Assembly: GCA_000611775.1 (NCBI GenBank)
Contig: KK106984.1
Span: forward strand, 960,364 to 1,024,363
Length of the DNA: 64,000 bases
DNA from: Umbilicaria muhlenbergii
Taxonomy: Eukaryota; Ascomycota; Lecanoromycetes; Umbilicariales; Umbilicariaceae
Direction: 5' to 3'
The notes beneath the pieces were generated by a model. That model saw only the letters and a list, made by a program, of their open reading frames with translations, did not search any database and was not told the origin of the DNA. Every line of letters begins with the position of its first letter. Position 1 is the first letter of the stretch. This document shows positions 33,771 to 48,350 of this stretch, one piece after another. A program made the translations under genes and the position numbers.

Positions 33771-34198
33771 CTCTACACTAGCTTCTGTCTGGCACAGCTT
33801 GTTCCAAGCTCGAAGGTTACATACGAGCCGTGTGAGGTGCGTGCGAGAAGGGCAGAGGGGGAGAAGGCGGGTGCCAACGCGTCTGTTAGCTGGAATATTG
33901 CTGAAAATATCCGCAAGGCGGCCACGGTAAGGTCTTTTTTTCATTATAAAGTCCACCTCGATGTTGTATGATGAACAAGCTCAAGAATTCTGCAATTCGG
34001 ACGGTTTCCAAGTATTTGTGAAGCCGAAAGTCGACACCTTGAACCTACACTTGATCTGACTCAATGCTTGATAAAAGACGCTCAGCAGCAATTGGATTTT
34101 CTCTTCATCATGACTGACAGTTTATCAATCTGGCAAATTGAACTTAGGCTCTCCTACGTCGAAAACGCAGCTATCTATCTCCTAAAATTATATGGCAC
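33771..34198. other. intergenic region between convergent genes
   Basis: About 430 bp with the 3' ends of two genes. No feature recognised. Confidence 0.5.
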
Positions 34199-45118: not shown

Positions 45119-45331
45119 TGTTAAATTTGTGAACTTCAAGAAGCTCTACGAGGGTGAAGGTGAGAGATGCATTGAAGTTGTCGAAGTTTGGAAAGTTAGA
45201 GCTGTAAGGCTGAGACTGAGGGTTTGGCGAAAATGAATCTAAACTTCAAGTGTGAATGCCCTGTATGTACGAGGAGCTGCAGACCTCCAAATTCTGCTGT
45301 GGACTGAGTCACATTCAATATATCCAGCACA

Positions 45332-46396
45332 ATGCCTCCTCGAATACGCCTGTGTCCGGGATGCCATCGGACACTCCCTCGGACGCAATGGGCATATCCA
45401 TCAACGTTCAGATATGCTTCGGTGGCATCAGCCATAGCCCCAGCGCCTTCAATTGAGCAAATGACAACCTCCATCCCACCCATTGCACGGTATCCGCCTA
45501 CACAACCTCCATCACATCGACCTCCCGAATACCGCAAATCTCAGTTACACAGACAATACACCTCTCTCCTTCGATCCTCGCCGTTGATACTCATCTTCCA
45601 GCACAGTAATCTCAAAGCCACGGAGTGGATGGCCATACGGCGGGAAGTCGCACAAGCGGTGCGGAAAGTCGACGAGAGCCGTGCTGCAGAAGGTCGAGAG
45701 GACGCCAACCCAGCGGACGGTGTCAAGGTTCAGATTATACAGACGGGCATCTTTGCAGCTGCATTGCGAGTGGTGGAGTACTTTCGGCCCGAGTTACAAC
45801 CAGAAGCATCATCACCACATGCCTCAGATCCCTCTACGCAGTCCTCCGCCGAATTACCCAACACACTACCCACGCCCAATGACCCCACGCTTAAGCACGG
45901 CCTGTCACGCGCTGCGCACGATGCGGTAGCGGACAAGAAGAGATCAAAACATCCACTCGATCCACTACTTTCGGGGCCTTTGGCTGTTGTCTCGTTTCCA
46001 ACAGTCTCACCGCAACACCTGAAAGCGGTACTTTCTATCCTTGCCCCAAGCGCGCCCGATTTCCCCGCGCCTACACGACGAGCGAATCCCGGATATTATG
46101 ATTCTTCTGTGCAGAATGGGACACAGAAGCTTCTTCTGCTAGGCGCACGAGTGGAGCGGAAGGTCTTCGATGCTGATGGAACCAGATGGGTAGGAGGTAT
46201 TGAAGGCGGTTTAGATGGGCTGAGAGGACAGTTGGTGGCCATGTTACAAGGCATTGGCGCTGGCATTACGAATACCTTGGAAAGTGCTGGGAAGAGCCTG
46301 TACTTTACGGTTGAGAGTCGGCGTGGGATGCTAGAGGACGAGCAAAAGGAGAAGACCGGAGACGACAGTGGCAGCAAACCGCCTACGGCGCCTTAA
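45332..46396 (+). CDS. MRPL11: mitochondrial large-subunit ribosomal protein uL10m
   Basis: Stalk-base protein of the mitochondrial ribosome. Single exon from the ATG at 45332, 354 residues. The N-terminus is Arg/Pro/Ser-rich without acids, as in a matrix presequence, and includes two Cys (LCPGCHRTL). The uL10 fold starts near SQLHRQYTSLLRSSPLILIF and continues through NLKATEWMAIRREVAQAVRK, VQIIQTGIFAAALRVVEYF, GPLAVVSFPTVSPQHLKAVL, and KLLLLGARVERKVFDADG. A Ser/Thr/Pro-rich insert of about 60 residues sits in the middle, as in other fungal mitochondrial homologues. Confidence 0.8.
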   Translation: MPPRIRLCPGCHRTLPRTQWAYPSTFRYASVASAIAPAPSIEQMTTSIPPIARYPPTQPPSHRPPEYRKSQLHRQYTSLLRSSPLILIFQHSNLKATEWMAIRREVAQAVRKVDESRAAEGREDANPADGVKVQIIQTGIFAAALRVVEYFRPELQPEASSPHASDPSTQSSAELPNTLPTPNDPTLKHGLSRAAHDAVADKKRSKHPLDPLLSGPLAVVSFPTVSPQHLKAVLSILAPSAPDFPAPTRRANPGYYDSSVQNGTQKLLLLGARVERKVFDADGTRWVGGIEGGLDGLRGQLVAMLQGIGAGITNTLESAGKSLYFTVESRRGMLEDEQKEKTGDDSGSKPPTAP

Positions 46397-46846: not shown

Positions 46847-46852
46847 AAAAAA
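46847..46852 (-). terminator. Pol III terminator of the initiator tRNA
   Basis: Six consecutive T on the minus strand begin 8 nt after the discriminator base A73 (46860), followed by GATTTTT as a backup. This is the standard RNA polymerase III stop signal and shows that the locus still has Pol III architecture. Confidence 0.8.
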
Positions 46853-46870
46853 GATATTCTAGCAACACCT

Positions 46871-46881
46871 GGTTTCGATCC
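46871..46881 (-). promoter_or_regulatory. intact internal B box of the initiator tRNA
   Basis: GGATCGAAACC in the T-arm is the initiator version of the TFIIIC B box. The A box (TGGC then GCAGCGG) is split by intron 1, although the unspliced TGGCGTAAGTT is itself close to an A-box consensus. Confidence 0.75.
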
Positions 46882-46909
46882 AGGGTCCTCCGGGTTATGA
46901 GCCCGGCGC

Positions 46910-46961
46910 CTGATATTGGGTTAGTTCGTTGAAAGCTTATCATTAATTGCAGGTTACTCAC
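46910..46961 (-). other. tRNA intron 2, 52 nt, spliceosomal type
   Basis: Starts GTGAGT, ends ATATCAG, and has GAACTAACCC with the CTAAC branch-site core 11 nt before the 3' end. It separates nucleotides 23 and 24 of the D-stem. Length and signals match the mRNA introns of neighbouring genes (47-67 nt). Confidence 0.85.
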
Positions 46962-46972
46962 GCTTCCGCTGC

Positions 46973-47027
46973 CTGGAAGATTTTTAGTGAGCTGAACATG
47001 GGAAATTTGAATTGATCTTGAACTTAC
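46973..47027 (-). other. tRNA intron 1, 55 nt, spliceosomal type
   Basis: Starts with the optimal donor GTAAGT and ends CTTCCAG. The likely branch site is TCACTAAAA, weaker than that of intron 2. It separates nucleotides 11 and 12 of the D-stem, so exon 2 between the two introns is only 11 nt. Confidence 0.85.
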
Positions 47028-47280
47028 GCCATGTTGCTGCTGATTGGTAATTTGCCTCCCTATTTGAATGAATAACCGCAAGTACAGTGCCTAGCACAAA
47101 ACGACATAACAATCCCATACAATTACTACCGAACATCATTTATATTGATCTAAGAAAGTCCTGGGAATTGCTGAGTATAACAGTTGCCCAGAACCTAGTC
47201 AGAGATTCATCTAGGTGACACCACTCCAATTAAGACCAACTAACCTTGTCCATTCCTACAACTTTCACTACCCCTATGCT

Positions 47281-48350
47281 ATGGTCAGGCTAGCCTCAAT
47301 TCCCACAAGAAAGGCAATATCTACTTTAGAATCATGTCTGTTCTGTCAATTTCGACGGCCAATCCGACCACCAACTCGAAAGGCTTACACCTCCGCCCAA
47401 CCGCCTCCGCCCCCTAAACAGTCCAAGCCACCCAACAAACCAGATGAAGACCACAACCCCAAACCTCTCGACCGACCCCTCGGCCAGCGCAACCCCCCCA
47501 AAGCCGGCGAAAACAGCGGCATAGACCCCCGCACATGGCGCCAACGCCGCGACGACTTCGTCAACTACGACAAGCACCTTGAGCGCCGGCGCCAACTGTA
47601 ATAGCCCCCTCCGCCCACGCCCCATCTCAGACCCGTACCTAATATTGACACAGGACCAAAGCCGTCGCCAAGCCCTACTTCCGCGAATGGACCAACATGC
47701 GCTACCACAAAGGCAAGACCTTCCGCTCCAACTCGCGCCTCTTCCGCGCCGACAAAGCCCTCTACTTCCCCAATCTGCAGGGCATCACGCTCGCCACTTC
47801 CCGGCAGCTGTGCGACACGACGCCCGTGCTGGAAGACAAGATCTCTGTAGTCGGCGTGTTTTCGGAGACGTGGGCGGAGCGGCAGGTAGCGACGTTTGTA
47901 GGGGAGAAGGAGAATCCGGCATTACATGTGCTGCTTAAGGAAGGGAAGGGGTTAGCGCAAATGGTTGAGATCAACTATGAGCCGAATGCGATGAAGGCCG
48001 CTTTGATCAGGTTGTTTATGCCGAGGTTGAGAAGACAGATGCCGAAGGAGGCGCATGGGAGGTATTTTGTTGTGAGGAGAGGGGTCACGGAGGAGATGCG
48101 GGATGATGTTGGGTGGATCAATAGTAAAGTGGGATATGTGTATCTGGTGGATAGGGAGTGTAAGATCCGGTGGGCTGGGAGCGGGCGCGCAGAGGCCGGG
48201 GAGAAAGAAGGGCTTGTAGCTAGTGTCAAAAGGCTCCTCGAGGAGTACAAGAAGAAGCCGAGACCGGAGGCGGATAAACGGGAAAGAGATGGAGACTCGC
48301 CTGCCCTGCATGCGGCGACTGAGGCTGTTGGTACCGCTATAGAAAAATAA
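47281..48350 (+). CDS. ATP10: mitochondrial ATP synthase assembly factor Atp10
   Basis: Inner-membrane chaperone for Atp6 during assembly of the Fo sector. Two exons, 47281-47597 and 47654-48350, with donor GTAATAG and acceptor ACACAG; the junction reads RRQL|TKAVAKPYFREW. The N-terminus is a basic presequence (MVRLASIPTRKAISTLESC) followed by a Pro-rich linker. The conserved domain has FREWTNMRYHKGKTF, FRADKALYFPNLQGITL, ISVVGVFSETWAERQVATF and YVYLVDRECKIRWAGSGRA. About 337 residues. The 5' part is C-rich, the 3' part after about 47850 G-rich. Confidence 0.9.

Follow-up and report, generated by a model that had tools for sequence, protein, structure and literature searches.

At least 22 tRNA genes, including the initiator tRNA gene, contain spliceosome-type introns in the lichen-forming fungus Umbilicaria muehlenbergii

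Results

The initiator tRNA gene has two introns in its D arm

The lichen-forming fungus Umbilicaria muehlenbergii is amenable to culture and transformation. Its initiator tRNA gene (iMet) lies on the minus strand at positions 46860-47038 of the window (the whole 64-kb stretch of DNA that was analysed, bases 960364-1024363 of contig C4) and consists of three exons (11, 11, and 50 nt) and two introns (55 and 52 nt). It sits between a gene that we read as encoding mitochondrial L10 (open reading frame 45308-46396) and ATP10, which starts at 47215 on the plus strand, divergent from iMet. The closest named relative of ATP10 is from Lasallia pustulata (86% identity over 87%). Elsewhere in the window, at 33963-34061 on the plus strand, there is a C/D box snoRNA that matches Rfam RF01499 (Afu_191) with 67.9 bits. 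The features of iMet, and the ATP10 intron used for comparison, are:

47061..47065, minus strand: TATA-like box of iMet, AAATA, 27 nt upstream of the tRNA
47028..47038, minus strand: iMet exon 1, nt 1-11, AGCAACATGGC
46973..47027, minus strand: iMet intron 1, 55 nt, GTAAGT..CCAG, between nt 11 and 12
46962..46972, minus strand: iMet exon 2, nt 12-23, GCAGCGGAAGC, the D loop and one half of the D stem
46910..46961, minus strand: iMet intron 2, 52 nt, GTGAGT..TCAG, between nt 23 and 24
46860..46909, minus strand: iMet exon 3, nt 24-73, carrying the anticodon CAT
46871..46881, minus strand: B box of iMet, GGATCGAAACC, inside exon 3
46847..46852, minus strand: candidate Pol III terminator of iMet, a run of six Ts (T6)
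47598..47653, plus strand: intron of the ATP10 mRNA, 56 nt, GTAATA..CCTAATATTGACACAG

The hallmarks of a eukaryotic initiator tRNA are A1:U72, a GGG:CCC anticodon stem, the anticodon CAU, A54, A60, and a full cloverleaf. In iMet this set is complete after removal of both intron segments. The spliced product is a 72-mer with a 7-bp acceptor stem (including A1:U72), a D stem of GCGC/GCGC, an anticodon stem of CCGGG/CCCGG, the loop CUCAUAA, and both A54 and A60. ARAGORN recognised it as tRNA-Met(CAT) with a score of 117.9, and found no tRNA in the unspliced gene, in forms retaining either intron, or in the 64-kb window as a whole. That is, the original prediction that a perfect initiator tRNA forms only when 46973-47027 and 46910-46961 are removed was borne out, and the borders that it gave (GTAAGT..CCAG and GTGAGT..TCAG) are exact in their coordinates. 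Skipping of exon 2 was also considered, and ARAGORN recognised no tRNA in that product.

The two introns interrupt the same rung of the D stem on opposite strands, between pairs 11:24 and 12:23. They are at 11/12 and 23/24, and hence not at the canonical position, 37/38. The structure of the tRNA fixes each border to within one base, GT-AG being one of two equivalent registers. Segments of the form GTRAGT..YAG are rare in the window: counting both strands, with real introns and the iMet gene included, they make up 3 of 127,896 segments of 52 nt and 5 of 127,890 segments of 55 nt. Based on these rates, the probability of two such segments in place by chance is ~1e-9 (4e-9 if either register is accepted).

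In intron 2 the branch motif is CTAAC (46924-46920), which puts the branch A at 46921. This is 11 nt from the 3' end of the intron, just as had been claimed. A YTNAY at the usual distance is lacking in intron 1, where the candidates are CTAAA (-15, 46987-46983) and CTCAC (-19, 46991-46987). The 56-nt intron of ATP10 is built like the tRNA introns, with CTAAT 16 nt from its end, and its removal restores QLTKAVAK, matching the homologue P0007. The two iMet introns had been described as equal in length to local mRNA introns; the one mRNA intron compared, that of ATP10, is of similar length. The consensus for a U2-type 5' splice site is GTRNGY, and within GTRNGY..YAG segments of the window CTRAC peaks at -14/-15 (7 occurrences vs 1.4 in shuffled sequence, iMet included). 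Group I and group II introns have a catalytic core and are far longer than 55 nt. Self-splicing introns are ruled out in iMet by the sizes (52 and 55 nt), and Rfam at the gathering threshold gave no group I or group II match at this stretch.

Searches of the genome for another iMet gene

The original prediction had set, as a test, a search for an intact iMet gene elsewhere. We searched the draft assembly (34,788,950 bases in 7 contigs) with the anticodon arm, the 3' half of the tRNA, BLAST, and the D arm, and found no such gene. The sole exact match in the genome to the anticodon arm (GGGCTCATAACCC) was the iMet locus itself; 71 others were one base off. There was no other match to the 3' half (CTCATAA..GATCGAAAC) with fewer than two mismatches genome-wide, and the two matches with two mismatches were not readable as tRNA. 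BLAST of spliced iMet against the genome (E<=10) returned only exon 3 of this gene. The pattern for an uninterrupted iMet D arm had no match in the genome with fewer than two mismatches, and looser matches were as numerous (59) as those to a reversed control (likewise 59). The 3' halves were also sought in viral and prokaryote contigs, with no match; short-pattern matches in those records (45 viral contigs; at least 117 and 28 listed) were taken as bacterial initiator tRNAs or chance and given no weight.

Many of the near-matches to the anticodon arm are alike. Genome-wide, 60 of the 72 exact or one-off matches read GGGCTCATAACCT. At 25 of 29 loci (L022-L050, near position 1500), the reverse strand reads GGTTATGAGCCC right after CAACA, CAATA, or CTATTA. 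These look like primer sites of copia-type LTR elements that are primed by the inside of the initiator tRNA. The part of iMet that they match stops short of the splice junctions.

At least 22 tRNA genes have spliceosome-type introns

The original prediction dealt with iMet alone. Its assignment of the introns to the spliceosomal type stands, and its scope was too narrow: at least 21 further tRNA genes are alike. Among 43 recognised tRNA genes sampled, 22 had spliceosome-type introns and 21 did not (L002-L017, L366, L384, L385, L293, and L370). The intron-bearing genes of the sample, at least 22 with at least 31 such introns, are found on contigs C1 to C6:

Thr(AGT), Thr(TGT), Leu(AAG), Leu(TAA), Ala(CGC), Ser(AGA), Gly(CCC), Gln(TTG): one intron each
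iMet, Pro(TGG), Pro(AGG), Ser(GCT), single genes: two introns each
Ala(AGC), two genes: one intron and one intron
Arg(ACG), two genes: one intron and two introns
Lys(CTT), two genes: one intron and four introns
Asp(GTC), two genes: two introns and one intron
Phe(GAA), two genes: one intron and one intron

The sample comprised 121 stretches around B-box matches (84 + 20 + 17), one longer stretch, and 19 loci from a search with RF00005. The B-box stretches were drawn from 100 of 248 matches and from lists that excluded repeat families; those without a gene counted here were not readable as tRNA. For RF00005, 63 of 1258 candidates were scored, a set biased to uninterrupted tRNAs and no census. 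Genes split within the B box are overlooked by B-box patterns, and the sample is a lower bound. One RF00005 candidate (L019) was unrecognised by ARAGORN and was left out of the count.

The 22 spliced forms had ARAGORN scores of 104.4-120.5. An anticodon-loop intron was present as well in 16 of the 22 genes (15 according to ARAGORN, and Leu(TAA) by reading). The most heavily interrupted gene, Lys(CTT)-2 (L397, G000:C5:1571930-1572360), is split by four GT-AG introns into exons of 4, 5, 9, 13, and 51 nt. Exons as short as 4, 5, and 9 nt would be difficult for the spliceosome to handle. By reading, the anticodon stem contains a U.U mismatch in both Lys(CTT) copies, and Lys(CTT)-2 may be in the process of being lost.

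Two of the loci without spliceosome-type introns (L293 and L370) resemble each other: both are tRNA-like, both have an insert of ~80 nt in the anticodon loop, and neither has a clear anticodon. We also noted a repeat family with the B-box-like sequence GGTTCAATTCCTATTGGCGCTAC scattered in the genome (for example at L323, L325, L331, L334, and L359).

Sequence features of the introns

The 31 tRNA introns are 48-69 nt long (median 53), similar to the single homology-supported mRNA intron (ATP10, 56 nt). At the 5' end, 29 of 31 begin with GT, one with GA, and one with GC; all 31 end in AG. Position +5 is occupied by G in 29 introns and position -3 by a pyrimidine (C or T) in 30. A YTNAY motif starts at -16 to -14 in 27 of the 31 introns, compared to a mean of 2.7 and a maximum of 10 in 500 shuffles; the branch motif had played no part in setting the intron boundaries. 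Four introns, including intron 1 of iMet, miss the usual branch motif. The two non-GT starts, GAAAGT in Pro(AGG) (L387) and GCAAGT in Ser(GCT) (L380), are both accompanied by good branch motifs, and the GA in Pro(AGG) may mark a damaged gene or a lesion.

We compared all 256 pairs of end dinucleotides for their ability to restore a tRNA. Every segment of 40-80 nt, singly or in pairs, was removed from 144 stretches, and the products were given to ARAGORN. GT-AG ranked first, with rescue at 17 loci; the other pairs had a mean of 4.5 and a maximum of 13. The runners-up, GT-CA and TA-AG (13 loci each), were taken as one-base slips of GT-AG borders. The unaided GT-AG scan gave introns identical to those of the curated set in 15 of the 22 genes. 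It picked a different AG for one intron of Asp(GTC)-1, favoured other segments in Gly(CCC), Asp(GTC)-2, Leu(TAA), and Pro(AGG), and did not detect Ser(GCT) or Lys(CTT)-2 (the latter lay only partly within its stretch). The last six of these genes, from Gly(CCC) to Lys(CTT)-2, were spliced by eye and scored afterwards. When ARAGORN was free to place the anticodon-loop intron, it named Ala(AGC)-1, Thr(AGT), Thr(TGT), and Pro(TGG) differently and gave Leu(TAA) a four-base anticodon; with the position fixed at 37/38, the four names were as curated. We found no sign of a mobile intron family: at E<=0.01 the only introns to match each other were those of the two Phe genes.

Paralogues differ in their intron positions

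The two Phe genes are identical at 72 of 73 exon positions and at 42 of 50 intron positions, and both keep their splice sites. That is, the exons are held and the introns are drifting. Other pairs have no intron position in common. Lys(CTT)-1 has its intron after nt 11, and Lys(CTT)-2 has introns after nt 4, 9, 18, and 31. Of the two Ala(AGC) genes, the first is interrupted in the T stem and continuous through the D arm, and in the second the reverse holds. Nor is any position shared within the Arg(ACG) pair or the Asp(GTC) pair. In such pairs one copy provides an intron-free reference for the other. Because none of these four pairs has a position in common, intron gain is the simpler reading. 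Such gain would be recent, and it may have occurred through reverse splicing. We think it probable that spliceosomal introns invaded the tRNA genes on a large scale, that tRNA genes are still acquiring introns (since near-identical paralogues differ in intron sites), and that the spliceosome gates translation and its initiation.

Transcription of the intron-bearing tRNA genes

All 22 intron-bearing genes have a run of at least four Ts within 40 nt downstream, compared to a background of 10%. Eleven of them had been found with patterns that included a T-run, and the remaining 11 were found independently of it. An AT-rich upstream box was present in 13 of the 18 intron-bearing genes that had enough upstream sequence, and in 7 of 16 tRNA genes without such introns (background 2.3%). 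In iMet, the B box and a T6 are present (the background for T6 within 20 nt is 0.16% in the 64-kb window) and the A box is split by intron 1. Based on the T-runs and the upstream boxes, Pol III is likely the polymerase of these tRNA genes.

The main competing possibility is that the tRNAs are spliced by the spliceosome, yet from Pol II transcripts. Spliceosomal introns usually accompany Pol II, and some of those described here fall where the internal promoter should be: 11 of 31 are after nt 9 to 18 (the A-box region) and one is just before T54, in the B box of Arg(ACG)-2. We nonetheless consider Pol II transcription improbable. It is at odds with T-runs at every gene and with upstream boxes that are common to the uninterrupted tRNA genes, and the U6 introns of fission yeast, in the passages of the source cited, are a precedent for such introns under Pol III (PMC10484740). 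Introns in the A-box region may be tolerated because of the upstream AT-rich box.

Dead gene copies and the tRNA-splicing endonuclease

It is very unlikely that the iMet gene described here is a dead or non-functional copy, with the intact one hidden in an assembly gap. The assembly is a draft and its masked stretches read N, which would leave room for such a gene. Against this, the iMet exons retain every hallmark and all stems, the intron type recurs in 21 other tRNA genes (both Phe copies included), and in the Phe pair exons are conserved while introns drift. A pseudogene, or a chance reading of the locus, is unlikely because at least 21 other tRNA genes carry the same type of intron.

Least credible is that the tRNA-splicing endonuclease excises these introns from ectopic positions, as happens in archaea and Cyanidioschyzon merolae, and that the GT-AG ends are incidental: multiple ectopic BHB introns do exist in tRNA genes of such organisms, according to passages of one source (PMC4090602), but here none of the 31 introns passed a strict-geometry test for a BHB (four central pairs plus flanking helices; the iMet junctions have one or two of the four pairs), the enzyme needs a folded tRNA body that these introns break, and the GT-AG ends, the G at +5, and the branch spacing would be left unexplained.

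Discussion

We conclude that iMet and at least 21 other tRNA genes very probably produce Pol III pre-tRNAs from which U2-type introns are removed by the spliceosome, as judged from the sequences of the genes and their introns. RNA polymerase III would make the pre-tRNA, guided by the upstream AT-rich box, the B box, and the T-run. The nuclear spliceosome would then excise the GT-AG introns via their branch sites, and the cloverleaf would fold once these are gone. Where there is an anticodon-loop intron, the tRNA-splicing endonuclease would act after the spliceosome.

In the textbook view, nuclear tRNA introns are the province of the tRNA-splicing endonuclease and spliceosomal introns belong to Pol II transcripts; rRNA and U6 are the exceptions. 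Bhattacharya et al., in 2000, reportedly described introns of the spliceosomal type in the nuclear rRNA genes of ascomycetes that form lichens, and Tani and Ohshima, in 1989 and 1991, are said to have described mRNA-type introns in the fission-yeast genes for U6 snRNA. Spliceosomal introns outside of mRNA thus have precedents (rRNA and U6); for tRNA biology they are a new intron class. The prediction that such a tRNA was undescribed agrees with our search of the open-access literature (most subscription journals and preprints lay outside it), in which we found no spliceosomal introns in tRNA genes.

The rDNA of lichens is described, in passages of two sources, as having group I introns together with ectopic spliceosomal introns, all of which are removed (PMC8527467, PMC6652019). 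The tRNA introns are like these rRNA introns in being small (57 bp in Cladonia grayi, in the same passages) and in residing in genes for structural RNAs that are not transcribed by Pol II (PMC8527467, PMC6652019). They are unlike them in their hosts, here at least 22 tRNA genes that include the sole iMet gene found. U6 of fission yeast, a Pol III transcript, has an mRNA-type intron for which an origin by reverse splicing has been proposed, in passages of the source (PMC10484740). The likeness is that spliceosomal introns would be in Pol III transcripts in both cases (Pol III being the probable polymerase here); the difference is that U6 is a component of the spliceosome and tRNAs are not. U6 of U. 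muehlenbergii is intron-free, because the full family model matched within 100 nt.

There are also likenesses to known tRNA introns. Sixteen of the 22 genes seem to have a canonical eukaryotic 37/38 intron too; the introns described here differ from it in their positions, their GT-AG ends, and their branch motifs. Ectopic tRNA introns are known from archaea, nucleomorphs, and Cyanidioschyzon, and the passages of the source do not mention the spliceosome (PMC4090602). As in archaea, nucleomorphs, and Cyanidioschyzon merolae, there can be several introns per gene, in the D and T arms (same passages, PMC4090602). Unlike those introns, the ones here have no BHB by the strict test, and the nucleomorph introns are quoted as 3-24 nt (PMC4090602). 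A common tRNA finder handles non-canonical introns by BHB models in archaea, according to passages of its description (PMC8450103). Finders that expect introns in the anticodon loop only will overlook genes of the kind found here, as ARAGORN did in the window, where it reported zero.

If the introns are spliced as we infer, tRNA joins rRNA and U6 as a host of spliceosomal introns. The near-identical tRNA paralogues with and without introns are a clean record of the origin of spliceosomal introns. These genes also bear on whether the spliceosome needs Pol II, on the minimal length of an exon, and on how Pol III deals with split internal promoters. In lichens, the rDNA introns have been proposed, in passages of two sources, to be tied to slow growth and desiccation tolerance (PMC8527467, PMC6652019). 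There may be a tie between the tRNA introns and that proposal, in which rDNA introns slow growth and aid desiccation tolerance (PMC8527467). If our reading is true, the initiation of every protein in U. muehlenbergii would rely on the spliceosome, which the sole iMet gene found would need.
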